Of a stretch of DNA of 33,289 bases, positions 7,148 through 21,556 are shown piece by piece. Location of the stretch: contig JADFYN010000012.1 in NCBI GenBank assembly GCA_015233055.1, positions 1 to 33,289 of the forward strand, given 5' to 3'. Source of the DNA: Deltaproteobacteria bacterium (GTDB lineage Bacteria; Desulfobacterota; JADFXK01). Position 1 is the first letter of the stretch. The number at the start of each line of letters is the position of its first letter. Made by a program: the position numbers and the translations under genes. The notes beneath the pieces are model-generated. The model was not told the origin of the DNA and ran no database searches. It saw nothing but the letters and a program-made list of their open reading frames with translations.

Positions 7148-7313
7148 GCCTGTGAGAATTGCAGATGCCAACGCAAATGTTCGTCAGCTCGCCGGGAGCA
7201 TTTTCCTTAGACCTACACGACCGGCATCAAAAGGCGGCGTGGTGTATTGTTCTCTCTGATGCACGAAACGATTACAACCGGCAAAAATGGGGATTCGTAG
7301 GAGATGTCACATT

Positions 7314-8177
7314 ATGAAGACTTTTTCTAAGGGTGATCATAAGATTATTTGGGGTGATGCTCTGGAGGTTATGCAAAGCGAACTGCCTGATGGGTCGGTC
7401 GACCTGATTTTTGTAGATCCGCCGTACAATATTGGAAAGCAGTTTAATGACAGACGAGACAAATGGGAGTCGGAAGAAAATTATTTGACATGGTGTTATT
7501 CATGGTTCGATACTTGTATACGGAAACTAAAAAATAACGGCAGCTTCTATCTTATGAGCGCTACGCAAAATATGCCGTTTTTTGATATCTATTTGAGAAA
7601 GAAACTTCACATATTGTCTCGGATTGTGTGGTGCTATGACAGCTCAGGCGTTCAGGCCAAGAAATATTATGGTTCATTGTATGAGCCAATCCTCTTCGCA
7701 GTAAAAGACAAAAGCAATTATACCTTCAATGCCCAAGATATTCTTGTTGAAGCCAAGACAGGAGCAAAACGCAGATTAGTAGATTACAGGAAGCCGAACC
7801 CGTCACTGTATAATATTACTAAGGTCCCTGGGAACGTTTGGGAATTTCCGAGAGTGCGGTATAGAATGGATGAATACGAAAACCATCCTACACAAAAGCC
7901 CATCGCACTTATTGAAAGGCTCATAAGGGCAAGCTCAAATCCTGGTGATATTGTTCTTGATCCGTTTTCGGGCACATTTACCACGTCGTATGTCGCTAAG
8001 ATGTTAGGACGCAGTTCAATAGGTATTGAAGCAGAGGAAAGCTATGTTAAGATCGGTTTAAGACGGATCGGGATTTTAACCCATTACGATGGAATAGAGT
8101 TAAGAAAAGAACAGCGGTCTTTCGAGGTTGCAGGAAATTTGGACAGCCAACAACTTAAGCTCTTTCAGGAACGATGA
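7314..8177 (+). CDS. Site-specific adenine DNA methyltransferase, YhdJ-like (beta class)
   Basis: A 287-aa SAM-dependent N6-adenine methyltransferase. The catalytic motif IV DPPYNIG (residues 35-41) precedes the SAM motif DPFSG (216-220), which is the beta-class order. The 'DSSGVQAKK', 'NVWEFPRVRYRMDEYENHPTQKP' block and overall length closely recall E. coli YhdJ, which methylates ATGCAT; shared specificity is an inference from remembered similarity. The tracked ORF begins at 7287, but the ATG at 7314 has AGGAG (7299-7303) at good distance and is preferred. It overlaps the endonuclease gene by 4 bp. The DNA is visibly A+T richer than the catabolic genes on both sides, suggesting acquisition as a unit. 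It looks intact and should protect or mark the genome even if the endonuclease is dead. Confidence 0.93.
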   Translation: MKTFSKGDHKIIWGDALEVMQSELPDGSVDLIFVDPPYNIGKQFNDRRDKWESEENYLTWCYSWFDTCIRKLKNNGSFYLMSATQNMPFFDIYLRKKLHILSRIVWCYDSSGVQAKKYYGSLYEPILFAVKDKSNYTFNAQDILVEAKTGAKRRLVDYRKPNPSLYNITKVPGNVWEFPRVRYRMDEYENHPTQKPIALIERLIRASSNPGDIVLDPFSGTFTTSYVAKMLGRSSIGIEAEESYVKIGLRRIGILTHYDGIELRKEQRSFEVAGNLDSQQLKLFQER

Positions 8178-9295
8178 TGGATCACGAATTTACAGACCAA
8201 CTGAAGGGAATATTGCGAACACGTTTTGGGGAACACGCTGAAGATGTATACGAAAAAAGCCCCATGCTGCAATACCTCAACATAAAAAGTAGATCTGCGA
8301 ATAGAGGATCAAAGGCAAGGGGAAGCTTTGCGAATTTCTACGCTATTTACGTTTTGGTGGAGGACTATCTGGCGCATGGTTTTGACAAGGAGGGTGATTA
8401 CTCAGGATATGAGGGTGCTAGATTTAAAGATTTGTCTCTTCGGCAGAGAGAATTGCCCTTTGGGAACAGGCTGGAAAATCATGCCTTAAATCACCGGATG
8501 AACGAAGACTTCCGGAAATATTTTCCACAGTCAACATTCATCCCAATCTTACGGGATGTTAGTGCAAATCGTTATTGGATTAATGAGAACCTTCTGAAGG
8601 TGACGACTAACAGCAATCTATATAATATTGCGAGTGTTATCATTGATATAATTGACTTATATGTAAAAACAAAAAAACATGCTTTCAATGCGTTTATACA
8701 AACATGCGAACGATTGAGAAATATTGATAAAGAGAGTGCTAATGCTATAGAAGAATTCATACTGAGTCTCTTGGCTACGAACGTTGATGCGCGAGTCTTT
8801 GAAATCGTAACTTAAGCTATTTTAAAGTATTACTATGATGAACAGATGGTGTATCTCGGGTTCGAAATCGATCACATCACCAAAGAAAACCTGAAGCTAT
8901 ACAAGACAGGCAGAACAAATGCAAATGATGGAGGTATCGATTTTGTGATGCGGCCACTGGGAAGATTCTTTCAAGTCACAGAAACTCTGGACGTGAGGAA
9001 ATACTTCTTAGATATTGACAAAATAGAACACTATCCGATAACATTTGTCATCAAGTCGGAGAAATCGATCGACTATTTGAAGCGGCAACTTGAAGATAAG
9101 GCCAAGAAACAGTATGCTGTAGCGGCCATAGTCCGGCAATATCTCAACTGCATCGAAGAAATTATTAATATTCCTGCCTTGGAGGAGAGGTTCAGAGAGA
9201 CAGTGAAAAATAACCGCATTAGAGAAGTGTTAGAGGAAATCATCAAACAAAGCAAAGTTGAGTTTAATCATAGGGGGTCCGACGAAGACGGATAG
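8174..9295 (+). pseudogene. Restriction endonuclease interrupted by an in-frame TAA
   Basis: The ORF track splits this into 213-aa (8174-8815) and 149-aa (8846-9295) pieces, but both are in the same frame. After the TAA at 8813-8815 translation continues without break as AILKYYYDEQ and then the second piece, so a single original protein of about 373 aa was interrupted by one nonsense codon, possibly a Tyr codon (TAT or TAC) changed to TAA. The downstream half carries 'NANDGGIDF' and 'GRFFQVTE', which look like the acidic core of a PD-(D/E)xK-type nuclease. The upstream half alone therefore lacks the likely active site. It overlaps the methyltransferase by ATGA, the normal layout of a type II R-M pair. 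UAA is not a known Sec or Pyl codon, so recoding is unlikely. A sequencing error is the main alternative. Confidence 0.82.
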
Positions 9296-9371: not shown

Positions 9372-10661
9372 ATGGCCCGTTTTATGCCTGAAATCAAGAC
9401 CACGGAAGAACTGGCCGCGCTGCAATTGGAGGGTCTGAAGTGGACGGTCAACCATGCCTATCATGGTTCCGACTTCTATCGGAAAAAACTGGATGCGGCC
9501 GGGATAAAGCCCGAAGACATCAAGTCATTGGCCGACTTGCCGCGGTTACCGATGACCATGGCCCATGAACTCCAGGGAGATTATCCCTTTCCGTTGCGGG
9601 CCGTTTCCCATGACCGGATTGTCCGGATTCATGCCTCATCCGGCACCACCGGCAAACGTAAGGTTTTTTGTTATACGGCCAAAGACCTCGAAGACTGGAC
9701 CTATTTTTTTGCCCGATGCTACGAGATGGCCGGTTTAACCGTGGAGGACCGCGTCCAGATTGCCGTCGGCTATGGTTTGTGGACGGCTGGAACGGGTTTC
9801 CAGGCCGGTTGCGAGCGATACGGAGCCATGGCCATTCCCATCGGTCCCGGCAATGTGGATCTGCAATGTGAATTCCTGGTGGATTTTCAAACCACGGTGC
9901 TCTGCTGCACGGCCTCCATGGGCCTGTTATTGGCTGAACGAGTGGAAGCTGAGAAACTACGGGACAAAATAAATCTCAAGAAAGTCATCTTCGGCTCAGA
10001 ACGGTCCTCCCAGGCCATGCGAGATAGGATCAAAGTTCTGCTGGGGGTGGAGCATCTGTTTGATATTCCAGGCATGACCGAACTCTATGGGCCGGGGACA
10101 GGCCTGGATTGTCTGAAGCATGAAGGCATCCACTACTGGGCGGACTATTACATTCTCGAAATAATCGATCCTGAAACCTTCCAACCGGTGCCGGAAGGCG
10201 AAACCGGCGAAATGGTCGTGACCACGTTGCGGAAAGAAGCCGCTCCCCTGATCCGGTATCGGACGCGGGACTTGACCAGATTGATCCCCCAGTTATGCTC
10301 CTGTGGTTCCGTCCTGCCCATGCATGGACCGCTTCTCGGCCGGACCGACGATATGATCATCTTCAGGGCGGTGAATATCTATCCCGGACAAATCGACCAC
10401 GTCCTGTCCCGCGTGGCCGGTGTCGGCAGCGAGTACCAGATTCATTTGGAGCGGAAAGATGACGGCAAAGACTATATGACGGTGGCGGTGGAAAGGGCCA
10501 AACAAGGCGATCCTGCCGATGACGGTAACCTCATTAAAGCCGTCTCGACCGGAATCAAAAAGCAGGCCATGGTCAGCGCCGATGTCCGGATTGTCAATTA
10601 TGGGGACTTACCTCGGAGTGAGCGAAAAAGCAAACGTGTCTTTGATCATCGGCCGGATTAG
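9372..10661 (+). CDS. Phenylacetate-CoA ligase-like AMP-forming acyl/aryl-CoA ligase
   Basis: A 429-aa adenylate-forming enzyme that activates a carboxylic acid with ATP and CoA. The P-loop-like motif SSGTTGKRKV (residues 89-98), 'MTELYGPG', 'RYRTRDLTRL' and the C-terminal 'RSERKSKRVFD' (with the adenylation Lys region) follow the order of PaaK-type ligases, and the length (about 430) is right. The track starts at 9258, but the ATG at 9372 is preceded by TTGGAGG and begins the normal N-terminus (MARFMPEIKT). Base composition matches the mutase and hyuAB genes rather than the R-M insert, so it likely belonged directly behind hyuB. The substrate may be an aromatic or oxo acid produced by the carboxylase; this is not provable from the sequence. 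Confidence 0.9.
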   Translation: MARFMPEIKTTEELAALQLEGLKWTVNHAYHGSDFYRKKLDAAGIKPEDIKSLADLPRLPMTMAHELQGDYPFPLRAVSHDRIVRIHASSGTTGKRKVFCYTAKDLEDWTYFFARCYEMAGLTVEDRVQIAVGYGLWTAGTGFQAGCERYGAMAIPIGPGNVDLQCEFLVDFQTTVLCCTASMGLLLAERVEAEKLRDKINLKKVIFGSERSSQAMRDRIKVLLGVEHLFDIPGMTELYGPGTGLDCLKHEGIHYWADYYILEIIDPETFQPVPEGETGEMVVTTLRKEAAPLIRYRTRDLTRLIPQLCSCGSVLPMHGPLLGRTDDMIIFRAVNIYPGQIDHVLSRVAGVGSEYQIHLERKDDGKDYMTVAVERAKQGDPADDGNLIKAVSTGIKKQAMVSADVRIVNYGDLPRSERKSKRVFDHRPD

Positions 10662-10788: not shown

Positions 10789-12183
10789 ATGAATATGAGA
10801 ATCACCGAGATAGCCGTCAACGGGCTCTTCGGCCTATTTGACCACCACATTCCGCTGAACTTGAGTGAACGCGTTACCATCATTCACGGGCCAAATGGAT
10901 TTGGGAAGACCGTCTTGTTGCAAATGATTGACGGATTATTCAATTATAATTACGAGATATTTTCCAGGGTCCCGTTCAGTCTCTTTCGAATCAGATTCAA
11001 TGACAAAACTTCGTTGAATGTAAAGAGAAATCGGCCCACATCAGCCGGTGTCGGCCCGGAAATCAAAGCTTATGGATTACAGCCGGAAGATGAATTAATC
11101 GATCTGGCCTCGTTAAGCCTGGAAGGGGTTACGGATTTTGCCGGTGATCTGGAAAATTTGTATCTCGAATTACGGAGGACCGGGCTACCAGGGTGGTTCA
11201 GCACAAAAACGGGTTCGACACCTGATGGTCTGGATAAAACAGGACTATACGTTTGGTGGCTGCTAAAAAGACATCCTCGCTACCCTGACTGGCTGGCCAT
11301 TATCCGCTCGGTTAATCCAGTTTGTTTGATAAATCGTGACCAATTGACGGCCTACCAACAGCCGGTGATGGACCCATGGTCAGGACCAGGCCAGGGCCCG
11401 ATGGGAGGCCCAGGTCTGACCGGCAGTTCGACGCCACTGCTGAATAAATATCCGGCCGTACCTGAATACGCCAGACAATTATCTGCTAACATCAACAAAA
11501 TATTGGCTGATTCAACCCAGTTATCTATGAGTCTGGACAGCACTTACCCGAAACGTCTGATTGGCGATTTGCGGGAGAAGAAATGGGCGGGAGTTAACGA
11601 AGGCGAACTACGTCGAGAACTGAGTGAGCTAGACAAGAAGAGGGCCCGCCTGGCCGCGGCGGGGTTTATGGACAAGCAACAGGACTCCGTCGAGATCCCC
11701 AACCAACCTGTGGGCCGGGAGACATTACATGTACTCATGACTTATGTGTCGGATGTTAAACAAAAGCTGGGTATTTTTGAGGAGATGCTTAAAAAAATTG
11801 AATTGTTGAAGCGAATTATCAACAAATATTTTTATGGCAAGGAATTAATTATCGACAGGCAAGAAGGGTTTGTCTTCATGATGCCCGATGGCCACAGGTT
11901 GCCGTTGAGCGGGCTGTCGTCGGGCGAGCAACACCTCCTGGTCCTGGTCTATAAACTTCTTTTTGAGGTGGAGACTGACAGCCTGGTAATGATAGATGAG
12001 CCTGAGACATCCTTACACCTTGCCTGGCAACAGAAGTTTTTGGACGATCTAATGGATATTACCGGGTTAGTTGGATTCGATTGCTTGATTGCCACGCATT
12101 CACCAGATATCATTAGCGATCATTGGGGGTTGACGGTGGCTATGGAAGCTCGTAAAAACCAGGCGGAAGCAAGACCGGCATGA
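10789..12183 (+). CDS. ABC/AAA15-type ATPase of a two-gene defence cassette (AriA/OLD-like)
   Basis: A 464-aa SMC/ABC-like ATPase. Walker A GPNGFGKT is at residues 34-41. The signature-like SGLSSGEQ is near 374-381, Walker B LVMIDEPETS spans 399-408 with Glu404 as likely catalytic base, and the switch His lies in THSPD (about 436-440). The middle (residues 60-370) carries charged helices and an odd Gly/Pro-rich loop near 193-216 (SGPGQGPMGGPG). The gene overlaps the DUF4435 gene downstream by 4 bp (ATGA), so the two products probably act together. ATPase plus DUF4435 is the pairing of PARIS (AriA/AriB), an anti-phage system that responds to phage anti-restriction proteins; related OLD-like ATPases are the alternative. 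ATG codons at 10789 and 10795 are both possible starts, with no strong ribosome-binding site. Confidence 0.85.
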   Translation: MNMRITEIAVNGLFGLFDHHIPLNLSERVTIIHGPNGFGKTVLLQMIDGLFNYNYEIFSRVPFSLFRIRFNDKTSLNVKRNRPTSAGVGPEIKAYGLQPEDELIDLASLSLEGVTDFAGDLENLYLELRRTGLPGWFSTKTGSTPDGLDKTGLYVWWLLKRHPRYPDWLAIIRSVNPVCLINRDQLTAYQQPVMDPWSGPGQGPMGGPGLTGSSTPLLNKYPAVPEYARQLSANINKILADSTQLSMSLDSTYPKRLIGDLREKKWAGVNEGELRRELSELDKKRARLAAAGFMDKQQDSVEIPNQPVGRETLHVLMTYVSDVKQKLGIFEEMLKKIELLKRIINKYFYGKELIIDRQEGFVFMMPDGHRLPLSGLSSGEQHLLVLVYKLLFEVETDSLVMIDEPETSLHLAWQQKFLDDLMDITGLVGFDCLIATHSPDIISDHWGLTVAMEARKNQAEARPA

Positions 12184-13109
12184 AAGATTTCATTACCCCG
12201 AGGCGAACCGCCAACGCCATACTCATGCTCAGGGCGCACGCTCAATATCGAAGTAAGAGCTTTCTTGTCGTTGAGGGGCCGACCGATCGTGATATTTTTG
12301 ACCGGCTCATCGACCAAAACAATTGTGATATCAAGGTGGCCTCTGGAAAAGATAACGTGATCATGGTGCTTAAGGAACTCCAAAAAGGAAAGGACAGGTT
12401 CGAGGGAGTCTTGGGCGTGATTGATACGGATTTCTGGATGCTGAATGGGACGGCGTCACCGGTTGACAACCTTTTCCTGACTGATACCCATGACCTGGAG
12501 ACGATGATTATTTCATCTCCGGCACTGGAAGAAGTGGTGCGGGACTACTCCCCTCCGGACTGTGTTCTGTCGCCTGAAGAGATGACTGCGATCATCCGAG
12601 GGACACTGATAAGTATCGGAAAAGACATCGGCTATCTACGGTGGTTGAACGATACGGAGTCTTTGGGATTAAGGTTTGAAGGGTTGCCGATCACCGACTT
12701 TGTCGAACCGATGACGCAGGTGATAGACATCGCCGGGCTGACATCGGCGACAAGAGTCGGCGGAAACGGAGATTCATTAGAAGAAGCTGTTATTAAACAT
12801 AAATTTTGTGAATTGCAGGAGGTGGCGGCGGATCCCTGGCAGCTTTGTCAAGGGCATGATCTTATGTCTCTATTAGAGATTTTCCTACCGTTGATTATAG
12901 AAGAGAATTGTGGCGACGATACCGCAGCCGGGCCCTCTGGTCAATTCGCCTCAGCAGAAATATCCCAAAGTCTTTTGGCCGCTTTTGGACCCGGGCTTTT
13001 CGCTGAAACCAAACTGCATGCTTCGATCCAAAAATGGGAAGAGGAGAATCACCCATATCTTGTATTGTCAGATGGGGCACCCCGTTCAGTTTTGGAAATC
13101 AGGATTTGA
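12180..13109 (+). CDS. DUF4435 TOPRIM-like protein (AriB-like effector)
   Basis: A 309-aa protein with the TOPRIM-type acidic pattern of DUF4435: Glu32 in 'VVEGPTDRDIF', the DxD pair Asp82/Asp84 in 'GVIDTDFWML', and a following 'TDTHDLETMI' block (102-110). In PARIS systems the DUF4435 partner AriB is the toxic nuclease (tRNA-cleaving) held by the ATPase until triggered; whether this protein is a nuclease is inferred from the intact acidic residues. The start at 12180 is set by the ATGA overlap with the ATPase. The C-terminal half is predicted helical, without recognisable motifs. Convergent with the GGDEF gene, whose stop is about 110 bp away. Confidence 0.85.
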   Translation: MKDFITPRRTANAILMLRAHAQYRSKSFLVVEGPTDRDIFDRLIDQNNCDIKVASGKDNVIMVLKELQKGKDRFEGVLGVIDTDFWMLNGTASPVDNLFLTDTHDLETMIISSPALEEVVRDYSPPDCVLSPEEMTAIIRGTLISIGKDIGYLRWLNDTESLGLRFEGLPITDFVEPMTQVIDIAGLTSATRVGGNGDSLEEAVIKHKFCELQEVAADPWQLCQGHDLMSLLEIFLPLIIEENCGDDTAAGPSGQFASAEISQSLLAAFGPGLFAETKLHASIQKWEEENHPYLVLSDGAPRSVLEIRI

Positions 13110-13221
13110 TCTTGTTTGCTGTGGCCGATATCAGCCACGAAAAAGGCCGGCGGATTGTCCGGACTAACAAACCTGGTGTGCCGACCGGCTGGTTTGGACT
13201 GTGTGGCCCATCATGACATGC

Positions 13222-14922
13222 TTAGCAGGTGGACACCTCCGTCCGGTTTCGTCCGAGATGCTTGGCCGAGAGCATGGCTTGATCTGCTCGTCCGATAGCA
13301 TCTCCGATTTCGTCATCGGGCTTGATACAACCTACGCCCAGGCAGATGGTCACCGGGACGCTCGCGGCGCCAAATTGGAAATCTATCAAAAAAATCATTT
13401 TTCTAATTTTTTCGGCGACGATATATCCTTCCTGGAGGGAGGTTTCCGGTAATACAATGACAAATTCGTCTCCTCCAAAGCGGGCAAAAAAATCCACCTC
13501 CCGGACATGTTCTTTCACCACTTCGCAGAGCTCTTTCAATATTTGGTCACCATTCAGGTGGCCGTACTTGTCATTTATGGCTTTGAAATTATCGACATCA
13601 AACATGAGCAGAGTGCACGGCCGGCCATACCGCTGATGCCGAATGATCTCGTCATTCACCCGCCGGTTCAAGGCGCGGCGGTTGGGGATTTGAGTCAGGT
13701 CATCCATTTCCGCCTTGCCTTTGGCTTCCTCAAATTCACGTCTGACCTCCGTAAATTTCTTCTGCAAACTATGGACGCTTTCTTCCAATTCAATAAACTT
13801 ATTCTTCTCTTGCGTGCGCTTTTTTCTAATGGTGGCCCTGATCAGGTCGAGACCCTTGATCGTCATATCTTTTAGCTCGGAAGGCGCCAGTCTCTTATCC
13901 AGATTTTCTCTGATACTGATTACTTCACTCCTGATAATCCGATTTAAGGCCAGGCCGTTCTCCAACGCACCTCTTTCCTTATCTAACAATTCATCAACAA
14001 ATTCTTGCTCCAATTCAAGCAGCCGATCTAATATCTCGTGCAACATCTTGGTTGTTTCTTCGTTCCTGCGGGTGTACTCTTTGATCAGCCTGGTGATCAA
14101 CCTCTTATAGTTGACTATATCGTTTAGATTAAAGTCAGTTAGCAATTCCGAAATAAAATGATCGAGCCGCTGATTGAATTCAGATTCATTCTCAGAATAG
14201 AGCTGGTTGATTATGCCCATCAGCAATTCTTGGAACTCGCCCTGCAATTTTTCCCGCGAGACTATAATCCGGGATAGGACTCTTTCGGCCATCGCATGGC
14301 TGATCCCTGAAAATTCCAGGCCATATATACATGGATGATCCGCTCTGTCATCCTTATGAACTACAGTGGCCTCAAGCTCGACATTCTGCTCGGCTGAATA
14401 AGGAATAGACAAAAATACCAGTTGGTTGATACTTAGGAACACATCCGTACTGATTTTGCAACCGGTTTTGCTCATGTCACGTACTATGGCGGTGAAAGGG
14501 CCGGCCGGACCGTCTTGGTCGCTGGACCGAATAGACAATCCAGCACTTATGCGGACTTCAAAGCGCCGATGGCGTCTTTTGTCCATCCGTTGGATATGAA
14601 TAGGAAAGGTCAAGAAAATGATCGGAGCAGGCGACAGAGTCGAACTAATGATCCGGCATTTGAACCCCAACAAGGTCTCGTCATCCAACAATCTGACGAT
14701 GTAATTATCGCTTCCGGCTAATGAGGTGATGAGGGCGCCCTGGACCGTGGGCGTATCAACGGCCAAATAGACACCCTTCTTGGCTCCCACAATAACTGAT
14801 CGACCGCCGATTCTCTTACCATCTCGGCCAATGGTTTCAATAAGAACTTTGGCCTCTAACGAAGGGAGGAAGCCGTCTTCCTTTGACTGTTCGGTTATCA
14901 TATTCATGTTTTTTCTATCCAT
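13222..14922 (-). CDS. PilZ-GGDEF diguanylate cyclase with intact catalytic and inhibitory sites
   Basis: A 566-aa soluble protein. Residues 15-110 look like a YcgR-type N-terminal PilZN fold. The PilZ domain follows, with both c-di-GMP-binding motifs: RRHRR (116-120, RxxxR) and DMSKTG (149-154, D/NxSxxG). A helical, coiled-coil-rich linker covers about 225-400. The GGDEF domain runs from about 403 to 566, with GGDEF at 483-487 and the RxxD inhibitory site REVD at 474-477, five residues before 'GGDEF'. It should make c-di-GMP from two GTP, sense product through the I-site, and respond through the PilZ module. PilZ upstream of GGDEF in one chain is less usual than PAS or REC sensors. The start has AAGGATGG just upstream. 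No membrane segment is seen. Confidence 0.93.
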   Translation of the reverse strand: MDRKNMNMITEQSKEDGFLPSLEAKVLIETIGRDGKRIGGRSVIVGAKKGVYLAVDTPTVQGALITSLAGSDNYIVRLLDDETLLGFKCRIISSTLSPAPIIFLTFPIHIQRMDKRRHRRFEVRISAGLSIRSSDQDGPAGPFTAIVRDMSKTGCKISTDVFLSINQLVFLSIPYSAEQNVELEATVVHKDDRADHPCIYGLEFSGISHAMAERVLSRIIVSREKLQGEFQELLMGIINQLYSENESEFNQRLDHFISELLTDFNLNDIVNYKRLITRLIKEYTRRNEETTKMLHEILDRLLELEQEFVDELLDKERGALENGLALNRIIRSEVISIRENLDKRLAPSELKDMTIKGLDLIRATIRKKRTQEKNKFIELEESVHSLQKKFTEVRREFEEAKGKAEMDDLTQIPNRRALNRRVNDEIIRHQRYGRPCTLLMFDVDNFKAINDKYGHLNGDQILKELCEVVKEHVREVDFFARFGGDEFVIVLPETSLQEGYIVAEKIRKMIFLIDFQFGAASVPVTICLGVGCIKPDDEIGDAIGRADQAMLSAKHLGRNRTEVSTC

Positions 14923-14998
14923 TGGCCATCCTTATAGCTCTGGAGACCAGAGATTTCTTCATCGTCAAACATCAAACCGACAGCATAGCGCGAGAAAC

Positions 14999-15037
14999 AA
15001 AAAAACGCAAAGAAATTTAATTATTCCTTTGCGTTTT
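14999..15037 (-). terminator. Intrinsic terminator after lon
   Basis: On the minus strand an 11-bp stem (15027-15037 with 15002-15012, aaaacgcaaag type) and a 14-nt loop are followed by an uninterrupted T7 run (complement of 14999-15005). It lies 64-102 bp beyond the lon stop codon and before the GGDEF start, so it should end the lon transcript and separate it from the downstream gene. Confidence 0.75.
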
Positions 15038-15100
15038 CTCGGGTTTTCGATTGTAACGAATAATTCCGGGAAATATCGACTCAAGCTGGGGCACCAGACA

Positions 15101-17548
15101 TCAATGAGTCCTTATCTCCGGAGAGGGAATTATATTTTCAAGCTGAAATAGGCTAAATGGTTCCGGCATAGGGTTAATGAACAACTCGTCGGGGTGATTT
15201 AGGGCCAGGGCTTCCCTTAATACCTGATCCATATGATCTACGGGAACAATGTTCATTGATCTCAAGATGTTATTTGGTATATCCTTAAGGTCTTTTTCGT
15301 TTTCTTTGGGAATGATGACCGTCTTAACGCCGGCCCGGTTGGCTGCGATCATTTTTTCCTTTAACCCACCAATCGGCAGCACCCGGCCGCGCAAGGTAAT
15401 CTCGCCGGTCATGGCAACATCGTTTTTGACCGGTTTTTTGAGCAGGGCGGAGACAATGGACGTGCCGATAGTGATTCCGGCCGATGGACCATCTTTAGGG
15501 ATAGCCCCTTCAGGGACATGGATATGAATGTCCACCTTTTGATAGAAATCCAAAGGCAGGCCGATACTGTTGGCCCGAGACCGGACGTAACTCATGGCCG
15601 CCTGAGCGGACTCTTGCATCACCTCGCCTAGTTTGCCGGTGATGATTAATCTGCCTTTGCCCGGCATTAAGACCACTTCAGTTTGGAGCAGTTCACCGCC
15701 CACTTCCGTCCAGGCCAATCCGGTGGTGAGCCCGACTTCATTCTTTTCTTCCGTCTTTCCATACCTGTATTTCTGCACGCCCAAATACTTGGCAATGGAG
15801 GAAGAAGACACCTTCATGAGCTTGTCGGTCCCCGACTTAAGAACTTCTTTGGCCACCTTGCGGCAAACAGAGGCTATTTCCCGTTCCAGGTTTCTGACTC
15901 CGGATTCTTTTGTGTATTCCCTGACAATGCTCAGGATGGCATTATCGGAAAACTCTATTTGTTCTGGTTTAAGGCCGTTGGCGTTTTGTTGTTTTCGGAG
16001 CAGGAACTGTTTGGCAATATTTAGTTTTTCATCTTCCGTGTACCCGGGCAGGCGAATGATTTCCATCCGATCCTGGAGCGGCAGGGGAATGGAGTAGAGA
16101 GTGTTGGCTGTAGTAATGAACATGATATCGGACAGGTCATAGTCGACGTCCATATAATGATCATTGAAGGCCATATTTTGTTCCGGATCCAATACCTCAA
16201 GCAAAGCGGCCGCGGGGTCGCCACGGAAATCGGTACTCATTTTGTCTACTTCATCGAGGCAAAACACCGGATTATTTGTCTTAACCTTACGCAATGACTG
16301 AATAATCTTCCCAGGCATGGCGCCTATGTAGGTCCTTCTATGGCCTCTGATTTCAGCCTCGTCGCGGACACCACCCAGTGATAACCGGATGAAGCTCCGC
16401 CCTGTGGCTCTGGCCACCGATTTGGCGATAGAGGTCTTGCCCACTCCAGGAGGCCCGACCAGGCACAAGATGGGCCCGCGAACCTTTTTAACCAGCGATT
16501 GAACGGCCAGGTACTCGGATATCCGCTCTTTCGGTTTTTTCAAACCATAATGATCCTCATCTAAGATTCTCTCGGCCTCGTTGATGTCGATCTTGGTCCG
16601 GGACAGGTTATACCACGGTAAAGCCAACAACCAGTCGATATAATTCCTGACCACAGTGGCTTCGGCCGACATGGGGGACATCAATTTCAGCTTTTTGAAC
16701 TCATTGCGAATCTTGGCGGCGGCTTCCTTAGACATTCTCTTACGGTTAATCTTTGTTTCTAACTCTTTTAGTTCACTCTTGAAGTCGTCCTTTTCCCCCA
16801 TCTCCTTCTGGATAGCCCGCATTTGTTCGTTAAGATAATAGTCCTTTTGGGTCTTTTCCATTTGCTTCTTGACCCGACTTTTTATGCGGTGTTCAATCTG
16901 GAGAATTTCGATTTCTGAGCGCATCAGGGCATACAGCTTTTCTAACCGGGCGCTGGGATCGGCAAGCTCCAACAGTTTTTGTTTCTCTTCTATTTTTACC
17001 CCCAGGTGGGCCGCGATGATATCCGCCAACCGGGAAGGATCGTTGATGCTTTCTATGGACTGGACTACTTCGTGCGGTATTTTCTTGTTTATTTTGGCAT
17101 AGGCTTCAAAGGTGGAGTTAATGCTCCGCAGCAAAGCCTTCAGTTCCAGGTCGTTTTTAAATTCATGAGCCAGCCGCTCTACCTCGACCAAAAAAAAGTC
17201 GGGGTTGGGAATAAAATGCTGGATACCGGCCCGTCTCTTTCCCTCGATCAAAGCCTTGACCGTGCCATCCGGGAGCCGGAGTAACTGGAGGATCGTCCCC
17301 AGGGTGCCGATATGGTGGATATCCTTTTCTTGAGGAATATCTGTCTTGGCGTCTATCTGGGTGGCCAGGAAGACGGTTCTGTCTTTGGTCATGGCATTTT
17401 CAAGGGCTTTGATGGACTTCTCGCGGCCAATAAATAACGGCGCCACCATGTGGGGGAAAATGACGATATCCCGGAGCGGCAGAAGAGGGACGGTGAGTCT
17501 ATTAATTCCAAGAAGATCCAAGTTTTTTTTCCTCGTTAAATTAAACAT
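15101..17548 (-). CDS. lon: ATP-dependent protease Lon (class LonA)
   Basis: An 815-aa LonA protease that degrades damaged and regulatory proteins in the cytoplasm. Domain order: N-terminal substrate-binding domain starting '[16 protein letters not shown]' (20-35), coiled coil about 190-290, AAA+ module with Walker A GPPGVGKT (365-372) and Walker B 'FCLDEVDKM' (429-437), and the peptidase domain with the Ser-Lys dyad Ser689 (KDGPSAG) and Lys732 (GGLKEK). Length is normal (about 780-820 aa). A weak GAGG sits 14 bp before the ATG. It is the last gene of the tig-clpP-clpX-lon block, but a 776-bp gap to clpX suggests its own promoter. Confidence 0.98.
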
Positions 17549-18324
17549 GGCGATGTGTTCTACCTCGATTACAGTTAGGGGTATCCGGTTTCGTCGGAAA
17601 CATTACAGCCTCAGTCAAACGACTATATCTCGGAGATAATGGCTAAGTAGTCCGGCAGGTAGCAAGCGATGCTCGGGCCATAGCGGCAAGGGCGAGATTT
17701 TCCTCGGGTATTATTCCTTCTGGAGGAACATCAACCCTGGTGCTATCATCCGTACCTCCCATCGCTCAGTCGTGTTCCGGTCCGGATGGTAACATGATCC
17801 CCAGTCCTAAGCCTGAGTCATGGAAATAAATTGGAATTATTTTAAATTAAAGCAATATCCGGTTGGGTGCCGGTCAGCGCCTGAAAGGTCAATAGTCAAA
17901 AATTGCCGGTAGAAGTTCTTTCCGGTGGAGGCCCTGACCGTGTTTATCAAGTTAATCACTCACTGGCCCTTTGTAAATGGGGAGGGTATAATTCGAGGGC
18001 GTATTTATCTTGTAACATATTCTATCTATCAGTCATTTCAGTTTGCGGAGAGGCAAAATCGGCTCTTCTTCGTCTCTGTCTTCGTGTTTATATTCTCCGC
18101 TGATCCAGTTAAAAAGCAAAACCGTAAAGGACACGGAGGTTTCGCAGAGAGTCTAGGGCGCTTTTGAGTGGTTTATTCATCACGTCAAAACCGCTGCGGC
18201 ATCTCTTAATGCTCTGCGTCCTTTACGGCTTGCCTATTTTCAAAATGCTGGAAGTCGACATGGGACAACCGCCGGTCATCGTCAGCCGATGTGTCGGTCG
18301 GTTGAACCGGCCATCTCGACCGGG
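17549..18324. other. 776-bp gene-free gap between lon and clpX
   Basis: No ORF in this stretch looks coding. The longer plus-strand ORFs (17903-18103, 17925-18167) have no family resemblance, and a 39-codon minus ORF (17643-17762) lacks a good ribosome-binding site. The gap must hold the lon promoter, but I could not place one with confidence. Its left third is compatible with the upstream region of lon; the right third carries a repeat (18116-18233). Confidence 0.6.
18116..18233. repeat. Imperfect inverted repeat of dispersed 'ctctgcgtcctttacgg' type
   Basis: The arm at 18116-18132 (gcaaaaccgtaaaggac) is matched by the reverse complement of 18218-18233 (gcaagccgtaaaggac) with one indel and one mismatch. 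The surrounding 'cacggaggtttcgcagagag' and 'atgctctgcgtc' sequences resemble dispersed repeats common between genes in this group of bacteria. It lies between clpX and lon. Confidence 0.5.
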
Positions 18325-19578
18325 TTAGGCGTATTCCGCCTTATTTTCATACAACAAAATCGGAGATTCACGGTTTAAGATCACTTCTTCACTGATCACG
18401 CATTCCCGGACGTTTTCCATCGAGGGAATCTCGTACATGATGTCGAGCATGGCGCTTTCCAAGATGGCGCGCAAACCACGGGCTCCCGTTTTTCTTTTCA
18501 GAGCCTCTTTAGCCACGGCGTGCATGGCCCCTTCGGTGAACTTTAGGTCAACGTTTTCAAATTCAAACAGTTTTTGATACTGTCGAATGATGGCGTTGCG
18601 TGGCTCAGTCAGGATGCGGATCAGGGCCTCTTCGGTTAGTTCGTCTAACGTGGCCACGATAGGTAACCGTCCGACAAATTCAGGAATCAGGCCGTATTTG
18701 AGGAGATCTTCCGGCTGCACCTTCTTGATGGTCTCGCCGTATTTCGCCTTGCTTTTACTAACGATATCGGCCCCAAAGCCCATCGTTTTGACACCGGTGC
18801 GGGCCCTGATGATATCCTCTAAGCCGTTGAAGGCGCCACCGCAGATGAACAATATGTTGGTTGTGTCAACCTTGAGAAACTCTTGTTGCGGATGCTTTCG
18901 CCCACCCTTGGGAGGGACGCTGGCCATGGTTCCTTCAATGATTTTAAGTAACGCCTGCTGCACCCCTTCGCCGGATACGTCGCGCGTGATTGAGGGGTTA
19001 TCGCTTTTCTTGGCGATTTTGTCTATCTCGTCAATGTAGACAATCCCCTTAGATGTTTTTTCGAGGTCATAATCCGCTCGTTGGAGGAGATTCAGGATGA
19101 TGTTTTCCACATCCTCTCCCACATAGCCCGCCTCGGTCAAAGTGGTCGCATCGGCAATGGTGAAAGGTACGTTAAGTATCTTGGCCAGCGTTTGGGCCAG
19201 CAAAGTTTTGCCGGACCCGGTGGGGCCGATAAGCAAGATGTTGCTTTTCTGGATTTCGATTCCATCGAGATCAACTTTGGATTCAATCCGTTTGTAATGG
19301 TTGTGGACCGCTACGGCCAATATTTTTTTGGCTTCTTCTTGTTCAATCACATACTCGTCTATAATCTTCTTGATTTCCATCGGCTTGGGTACAGAGGATT
19401 TAGACTTGTCCGATTCTTCTTTTTCGTATTCCTCAGCGATGATCTCGTTACATAGTTCGATGCATTCATCACAAATATAGACAGACGGGCCGGCAATGAG
19501 TTTTTTCACCTCATCTTGGCTCTTGCCGCAAAAGGAACACAGCAGATCGGTCGTTTTTCCGTTTTTGTCCTTTGGCAT
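18325..19578 (-). CDS. clpX: ATP-dependent Clp protease ATP-binding subunit ClpX
   Basis: A 417-aa AAA+ unfoldase that feeds substrates to ClpP. The N-terminal zinc-binding domain has Cys14, Cys17, Cys36 and Cys39 (CSFC...CDEC). Walker A GPTGSGKT is at 118-125, Walker B is '[10 protein letters not shown]', and the arginine sensor region '[10 protein letters not shown]' is present. The ClpP-docking loop reads MGFGA instead of the usual IGFGA, a conservative change. The tracked ORF begins at 19665, but the ATG at 19578 gives the normal N-terminus ([19 protein letters not shown]) with GGGAGA 8 bp upstream, so the 29 extra residues are rejected. It follows clpP by 49 bp and is probably co-transcribed with it. 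Confidence 0.97.
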
Positions 19579-19627
19579 TAATTTTCTCCCAAAGCTACCC
19601 TGTTGACCTGGGATGATTGTTGTCGTT

Positions 19628-20233
19628 TCACACCAACGAGGGCCCGGTAAGGCCTCGTCTCGCAAAAACTTCGTCTATAATCCCGTATGCCTTAGCTTCC
19701 TCACCGGTCATAAAAAAATCCCGGTCAGTATCATGTTCTACTTTTTCTAAGGTTTGTCCGGTATGCTTGACCATGATGTTGTTCAGCATCCGGCGCATTC
19801 TGATGATTTCCTTGGCCTGGATGTCAATATCAGTCGCCTGACCTTGGACTCCGCCCAGGGGTTGATGGATCAGGATCCGGGAATGGGGTAGGGCATATCT
19901 CTTGCCTTTTTCACCGGCTGCGAGAAGCAACGCCGCCATGCTGGCTGCCTGGCCCATGCACAGGGTCGAAACCTGGGGTTTAATATACTGCATGGTATCG
20001 TAAATGGCCATTCCGGAAGTTACCACGCCGCCAGGTGAGTTAATATAAAAGTTGATATCTTTGTCTGGATCTTCCGATTCCAGAAACAGCAACTGGGCGA
20101 TGATCAGGTTGGCCACCTGGTCGTCGATCGGGGTACCCAAAAAGATGATTCTGTCTTTTAGCAGCCTGGAGAAAATATCGTAGGCTCTTTCGCCTCGGCT
20201 ACTTTGTTCCACTACGATGGGAATCAGATTCAT
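19628..20233 (-). CDS. clpP: ATP-dependent Clp protease proteolytic subunit ClpP
   Basis: A 201-aa serine protease that forms the double heptameric chamber served by ClpX. The catalytic triad is visible as Ser98 (GQAASMAA), His123 (ILIHQPLGG) and Asp172 (DTDRDFFM). The N-terminus ([21 protein letters not shown]) has the usual axial-loop sequence and the length is standard. It sits 27 bp after the tig stop in the conserved tig-clpP-clpX order. Nothing unusual is seen. Confidence 0.98.
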
Positions 20234-20260
20234 GCGTTTTCCTGTCTCGCCTCCATTCGC

Positions 20261-21556
20261 CTAATCCAATTTATGCTCGGTAATCTTAGCATGTTCGATG
20301 ACAAATTTCAACGCCTTTTCTGTGAGCAACTGGGTCTTGAGCGACTCTTCTTCACCGTCCTTGCGGTACAATTCACGGATAATCGACACCTCTTGCTTGA
20401 CCTGGTCGGCCAATTTGCTATAGTAGGCAGTGAGATCTTCTTCCGTAACCTCAATGGACTCCAATGTGGCGATCTTTTCTAAGATTAAAGAAGCCTGGAC
20501 ATTTCTTTCGGCCCTGGGTTGAAATTCCTTAGCCAGTTGCTCATGATGAACTGCAGAGTCAGGTAGCTTTACTCCCTGGCGATTCAGATTTTCCGTAAAG
20601 TTTTGGATCAGGCGAGCCATTTCGCTGGAAACCATAGACTCCGGCATCATCAAGGTACTATTTTGAATTAGGAGGTTGATGGCCGCTTCCCGAAGACCGG
20701 TATCGGATCTCTCTTTTTCAATCAATTCCATTTCTTCGCGGACAGAGGCCTTGAACTGTTCCAGAGTTTCCAAGTCCCCCCCAAGATCTTTAACGAAGTC
20801 ATCGTCTAAAGTCGGCAGAATTTTTTCTTTTATTTCCTTCAAAGTAACACTAAAATGAATGGTTTTGCCGGCTATTTCTTTCTGATTAATGTCCGAAGGA
20901 TAGGTCACGTCAAATTCCCGCGTCTCACCCGTGGTCATTCCGGACAGATTATTGGAGAACTCCGGTAACGACCGGGCTCCGCCGATCTCAAAATCAGCGC
21001 CGTCAGTCTTGAGACTTTCCATTGACTTGCCCTGATCATACCCTTGGAAATCGACGGTGGCAAAATCACCCGTTTGAAGTGGCCGGGCTTCAGCGATGGG
21101 TTTTAATTGGGCGTGGCTTTCTCGGATTTGTTCGATCCTTTTATCAAGCGCCTCATCGGTTACGGGTGAGACCTCTTTGCTCAGTTCCAGGTCTTTATAC
21201 TCCGTAATCAGAATTTCAGGCTTGACTTCCACGGTCATGCTATATGTGAATTCTTGCTTGGGAATGATTGGAGATATGTCGACGTTGGGTTCCGACACGA
21301 TATCCAGGCCGGATTCTTCCAATGCCTGGCCAAGAGTTTCTTTGATAATGGTTCCGGATACGTTTTCAGCCATTTGCTTGCCGAAATATCTTTCCAAAAC
21401 ACTTTTAGGCGCCTTCCCAGGTCTGAAGCCTTTCAGACGAGCGGTCTTGCTCAACTCACGATAGGCGGAATTGAATCCATTGTCAACTTCCTCCACAGGA
21501 ATGCTCACCATGATTTTCTTTTTGACACCGTCGATGTCTTGAACACTTACTTTCAT
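20261..21556 (-). CDS. tig: Trigger factor, ribosome-associated chaperone and prolyl isomerase
   Basis: A 431-aa trigger factor. The ribosome-docking signature GFRPGKAP (43-50) lies in the N-terminal domain. An FKBP-type PPIase domain covers about 160-245 (starting near 'GDFATVDFQGYDQG'), and the rest is the helical C-terminal cradle. It holds nascent chains at the exit tunnel. It opens the tig-clpP-clpX block, and the tRNA-Leu gene is about 250 bp upstream on the same strand behind a terminator, so tig should have its own promoter in 21557-21748. A small inverted repeat (caatgt...acattg) is near 21613-21636. Confidence 0.97.
   Translation of the reverse strand: MKVSVQDIDGVKKKIMVSIPVEEVDNGFNSAYRELSKTARLKGFRPGKAPKSVLERYFGKQMAENVSGTIIKETLGQALEESGLDIVSEPNVDISPIIPKQEFTYSMTVEVKPEILITEYKDLELSKEVSPVTDEALDKRIEQIRESHAQLKPIAEARPLQTGDFATVDFQGYDQGKSMESLKTDGADFEIGGARSLPEFSNNLSGMTTGETREFDVTYPSDINQKEIAGKTIHFSVTLKEIKEKILPTLDDDFVKDLGGDLETLEQFKASVREEMELIEKERSDTGLREAAINLLIQNSTLMMPESMVSSEMARLIQNFTENLNRQGVKLPDSAVHHEQLAKEFQPRAERNVQASLILEKIATLESIEVTEEDLTAYYSKLADQVKQEVSIIRELYRKDGEEESLKTQLLTEKALKFVIEHAKITEHKLD

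Follow-up and report, generated by a model that had tools for sequence, protein, structure and literature searches.

A probable divergent member of the two-gene PARIS family on a deltaproteobacterial chromosome contig

A pair of overlapping genes on a chromosome contig of an uncultured deltaproteobacterium (JADFYN010000012.1; the whole analyzed stretch of 33,289 nucleotides is termed the window herein) is probably a divergent member of the two-gene PARIS systems and, by analogy, would act as the Escherichia coli system does. The upstream gene encodes an AriA-like ABC ATPase and the downstream gene an AriB-like DUF4435/TOPRIM protein; the overlap of 4 bp (ATGA) and both open reading frames were found as originally predicted (Table 1). 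The pair is of a known kind, and nothing in the data requires a new mechanism.

Table 1 The cassette and neighboring features in the window
Feature	Position	Strand	Basis
AriA-like ABC ATPase gene, 464 aa, presumed sensor	10789..12183	+	PADLOC, PDB profile, fold match
AriB-like DUF4435/TOPRIM gene, 309 aa, presumed nuclease effector	12180..13109	+	PADLOC, Pfam, fold match, residue map
Gly/Pro-rich loop codons, ATPase residues 193-216	11365..11436	+	Predicted disordered, genus-specific insert
PAS/histidine-kinase gene remnant	13073..13160	+	blastn against L003/L002; HATPase_c and PAS in L003
N6-adenine DNA methyltransferase, type II restriction-modification (R-M), neighbor outside cassette	7287..8177	+	NF008572 1.9e-137; PADLOC MTase_II 3.4e-131
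Type II restriction endonuclease (REase) gene, neighbor outside cassette	8174..9295	+	PADLOC REase_II on both halves; translation
Phenylacetate-CoA-ligase-like gene between R-M genes and cassette	about 9372..10661	+	AMP-binding domains; synteny kept (L003 3120-4409)

The published detection rule for PARIS combines an AAA_15 match of ≥32 bits or an AAA_21 match of ≥27 bits with an adjacent DUF4435 match of ≥27 bits (PMC9122126); the window pair scores 71.9, 64.9, and 44.9 bits, respectively. PADLOC matched the ATPase to AriA (2.3e-27) and its partner to AriB (4.1e-19), and the partner also matched Pfam DUF4435 (1.5e-11); the DUF4435 and AriB profiles both score higher on the window AriB than on the solved AriB of E. 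coli. A profile of the ATPase family run against the PDB returned AriA (5e-30) and then PtuA (9e-13). A fold search with the AlphaFold model of the ATPase, which is of medium confidence (mean pLDDT of 68, TM-scores around 0.5), likewise gave AriA (E value of 1.1e-17), followed by retron/Septu PtuA at about 1e-9, and the best 16 matches were all PARIS AriA chains, ahead of any other protein. The reference pair was that of the E. coli P4 satellite (L035), a full-length match to the solved PARIS chains (8ux9, 8v45, and 8v46), and the AriA profile of the window's clade aligned to that of the E. coli clade at 3.9e-32.

For AriB, the link to the solved protein rests on the fold, the family profile, and a co-linear profile alignment, because neither phmmer nor a profile search of the PDB found sequence similarity between the two. 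The AriB model, again of medium confidence (mean pLDDT of 63, TM-scores around 0.5), gave PARIS AriB 8ux9_A as its sole PDB match below 0.001 (E value of 6e-4), which extends along the entire AriB chain (305 columns). The clade-to-clade profile alignment (2.4e-5, with an HHalign probability of only 75%) keeps both the TOPRIM core and the C-terminal G-H motif in co-linear order. In the window protein, the counterparts of E26, D88, E90, H119, E122, G237, and H238 of E. coli AriB are E32, D82, D84, H104, E107, G225, and H226. The TOPRIM acids among these (E32, D82, and D84), already considered intact from the sequence, are invariant in all relatives.

The ATPase motifs that had been read as intact were also all present, namely, Walker A (GPNGFGKT, residues 34 to 41), the signature LSSGEQ (376 to 381), Walker B (399 to 404, ending in D403/E404), and the switch histidine H437, and their key residues are invariant in an alignment of related ATPases. 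The Gly/Pro-rich loop proved to be a genuine feature: it contains no indels in the sister species, is a genus-specific insert, shorter or absent elsewhere in the clade, and is predicted to be disordered (pLDDT of about 26, inside a low-confidence segment spanning residues 185 to 222). Its dN/dS is about 0.5, calculated from few sites. Identity to E. coli AriA is 5.7% in variable region 81 to 190, compared to 34% in the C-terminal ATPase part; for the more distant relatives within its own clade, the values are 9 to 26% and 35 to 59%, respectively. This divergence fits a fast-evolving sensor region, without proving a different trigger.

The AriB tree contains two clades (support of 100/100): the solved E. 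coli system is in one and the window protein in the other. In the AriA tree, the E. coli group is isolated with full support, and an archaeal sequence (L006) on a long branch is its weakly supported neighbor. The solved PARIS structures come from one clade, and the window pair belongs to the other, the DUF4435-core clade, which includes members from Desulfobacterota, Zixibacteria, Methanomassiliicoccales archaea, P2-like phages of enterobacteria, P2-like prophages, and Enterobacterales and Vibrio plasmids. Among 395 genomes of the window's phylum, 5 (3 of the same genus) matched the family profile and 8 contained DUF4435. A narrow profile (A1) detected no viral relatives; a broader profile together with phage queries detected relatives on 13 distinct contigs. 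AriA lies directly upstream on the same strand in all 26 evaluable loci of this AriB type, a count that includes some near-identical and hence nonindependent phage loci, one locus where AriA survives only as a remnant (L007), and another whose AriA is broken (L002). Profile matches, fold matches from two independent models, the conservation of catalytic residues, and the joint conservation of the two genes back the PARIS assignment of the original prediction. This analysis could link no member of the window's clade to a published experiment; the DUF4435-core clade matters because its members bear on whether the sensing of anti-restriction proteins and the cleavage of tRNA are PARIS-wide or specific to the E. 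coli system.

In a locus from another genome of the phylum (L040, 10509 to 12732), a ParB-like gene lies, together with a D12-type adenine methylase, 1 to 3 kb upstream of the cassette, and a YhcG/DUF1016-like protein is encoded about 3.4 kb from an archaeal cassette (L004, 2113 to 3219); these assignments were made by eye. A fused ATPase-DUF4435 gene split by stops was also observed, beside a C5-cytosine methylase look-alike (L043, 5976 to 7356).

In the sister species (L003), the cassette occupies the same position, and so it does in L002 to the extent that a short contig covers it. A PilZ-GGDEF gene and a lon, clpX, clpP, and tig cluster adjoin it (13222 to 21556), and a promoter and terminator scan returned a number of sites similar to that in shuffled controls. 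Between the window and the sister species, AriA has a dN/dS of 0.19 and AriB one of 0.14 (dS of 0.35 to 0.46); both genes are under purifying selection, and the cassette has therefore been kept by selection. A PAS/histidine-kinase gene follows AriB directly and intact in L003 (391 aa) and L002; in the window (13072 to 13160), most of it has been lost through two deletions, one of about 470 bp and the other of about 640 bp, and the AriB 3′ end has become fused out of frame to the remnant, which supplies the last 11 residues of the window AriB. The AriB DNA (12200 to 13010) differs by about 10 to 17% among all three sister species; most flanking sequence is about 95% identical between the window and L002, and dS is 0.46 in AriB versus 0.15 in the GGDEF gene. 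This suggests exchange of effector alleles or strain mixing in the metagenome-assembled genomes.

The cassette had been described as lying next to a dying R-M system. The REase frame is indeed interrupted, by a single in-frame TAA (8813 to 8815); the system is not adjacent, however, as its genes (the methyltransferase being intact) lie about 1.5 kb upstream with the CoA-ligase-like gene between, and the loss amounts to one codon. The REase is intact in L003 (94% identity), and its dN/dS is 0.10 before the stop and 0.09 after it, with no sign of relaxed constraint, which makes the stop either very recent or an assembly error. Selenocysteine incorporation or other recoding was ruled out, since the codon in question is TAA and a sense codon stands there in the sister species. 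Because of the difference in GC content (R-M genes, 40 to 41%; cassette, 48 to 49%; CoA-ligase-like gene, 55%) and the intervening gene, the R-M system and the cassette look like separate acquisitions. Linkage to R-M genes is not a feature of most other relatives whose neighborhoods were read, and no type I methylase (N6_Mtase) was found in the window's genome, which is about 80% complete. The proposal that the trigger may differ because restriction has been lost was not supported: E. coli PARIS works in cells lacking EcoKI and guards no R-M system (PMC9122126), so a lost restriction function is silent on the trigger, and we discarded this argument on these grounds and on the even dN/dS across the stop.

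If the window pair works as its solved counterpart in E. coli does, AriA would be an ABC-ATPase sensor whose oligomer holds the TOPRIM nuclease AriB inactive. Binding of a phage protein to AriA, probably via its fast-evolving middle region, would free AriB, which would then cleave an RNA, most likely a host tRNA, and translation and growth of the infected cell would stop. For the window pair, the oligomer, the release, the substrate, and the growth arrest are all drawn from relatives.

The pair could also be PARIS by descent and nonetheless have changed its specificity, with AriB cutting another tRNA, another RNA, or DNA and AriA sensing a phage protein outside the anti-restriction class. We regard this as a real possibility, although we lean somewhat against it. 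Better hints in its direction than the R-M loss come from the two proteins themselves. The variable region of AriA, at about 6% identity, shows hardly any sequence relationship to its E. coli counterpart, which makes a different trigger plausible; the region is poorly conserved within its own clade as well, and divergence alone is insufficient. In AriB, the residues R28, K60, K64, and R236, which contact tRNA in the published E. coli model (PMC12409363), align with P34, E66, G70, and Q224 (the alignment being uncertain around K60/K64), the alignment of the window's clade contains no invariant lysine or arginine, and the AriB tree sets this clade apart from the solved one; the tRNA target may therefore differ from that of E. 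coli. Against this, the catalytic residues correspond, with one Asp for Glu, and the contact residues vary within the E. coli clade too. A more far-reaching version, which we consider doubtful, is that the phage proteins sensed by the DUF4435-type clade are not DNA-mimic anti-restriction proteins and that the RNAs it cuts form a different set, that the Gly/Pro-rich loop aids trigger recognition in the genus, and that AriB alleles are exchanged between species.

Two further readings would deny the pair a PARIS function, and the evidence speaks against both. A place in a different family of the ATPase/TOPRIM or ATPase/nuclease type (OLD, Gabija, Septu/retron PtuA, or MADS) could be argued from matches of the window ATPase to PtuA, MAD3, and further profiles; all of these rank below AriA in the PADLOC search (the best, PtuA, at 8e-22 versus 2e-27), in the PDB profile comparison, and by fold, and another family is highly improbable. 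A decaying, nonfunctional relic beside a dying R-M system would agree with the REase stop, the histidine-kinase remnant, and the AriB C terminus altered by that deletion, as well as with the broken ATPase gene in the assembly of sister genome G002. At that break, however, AriA is interrupted by part of AriB in inverted orientation (L002, 400 to 540), in a contig of 2.4× coverage, and the break is probably an assembly fault. With both genes open, under purifying selection, and invariant in their active sites, a relic is unlikely. A functional, divergent PARIS pair remains our preferred reading.

Compared with the PARIS system of the E. coli P4 satellite (PDB 8ux9 and 8v45 to 8v49), the window pair has the same gene order, the same 4-bp overlap, and nearly the same protein lengths (464 and about 308 aa in E. 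coli), and it shares the ATPase motifs, the TOPRIM acids, the H-x2-E and G-H motifs of AriB, and, as predicted by the models, both folds. It differs in its separate AriB clade, in the AriA variable region, apparently in the tRNA-contact residues of AriB, in the presumably disordered Gly/Pro-rich insert, and in its location on a chromosome contig instead of a satellite. The DUF4435-type PARIS systems of P2-like phages and of Enterobacterales and Vibrio plasmids (L016, L017, L018, L036, and L037) belong to the same AriB clade and, like the window pair, have TDxHDxExM and GHD motifs and AriA directly upstream; unlike it, they have a shorter AriA without the Gly/Pro-rich insert, share only 20 to 30% identity with it, and are found on mobile elements. 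Fused AriAB proteins of the same phylum (L041 and L042, the latter with the AriAB profile as its best PADLOC match) also combine the ATPase with DUF4435, but in a single polypeptide of about 540 aa. PtuA of Septu and retrons is a related ABC ATPase and the next best match by profile and fold, but its partner is the HNH protein PtuB and not a DUF4435 protein. OLD and Gabija GajA likewise join an ABC ATPase to a TOPRIM domain, but in one protein, whereas the window has two genes; Gabija has the GajB helicase in addition, and no helicase domain was found in the genes flanking the window pair on either side.
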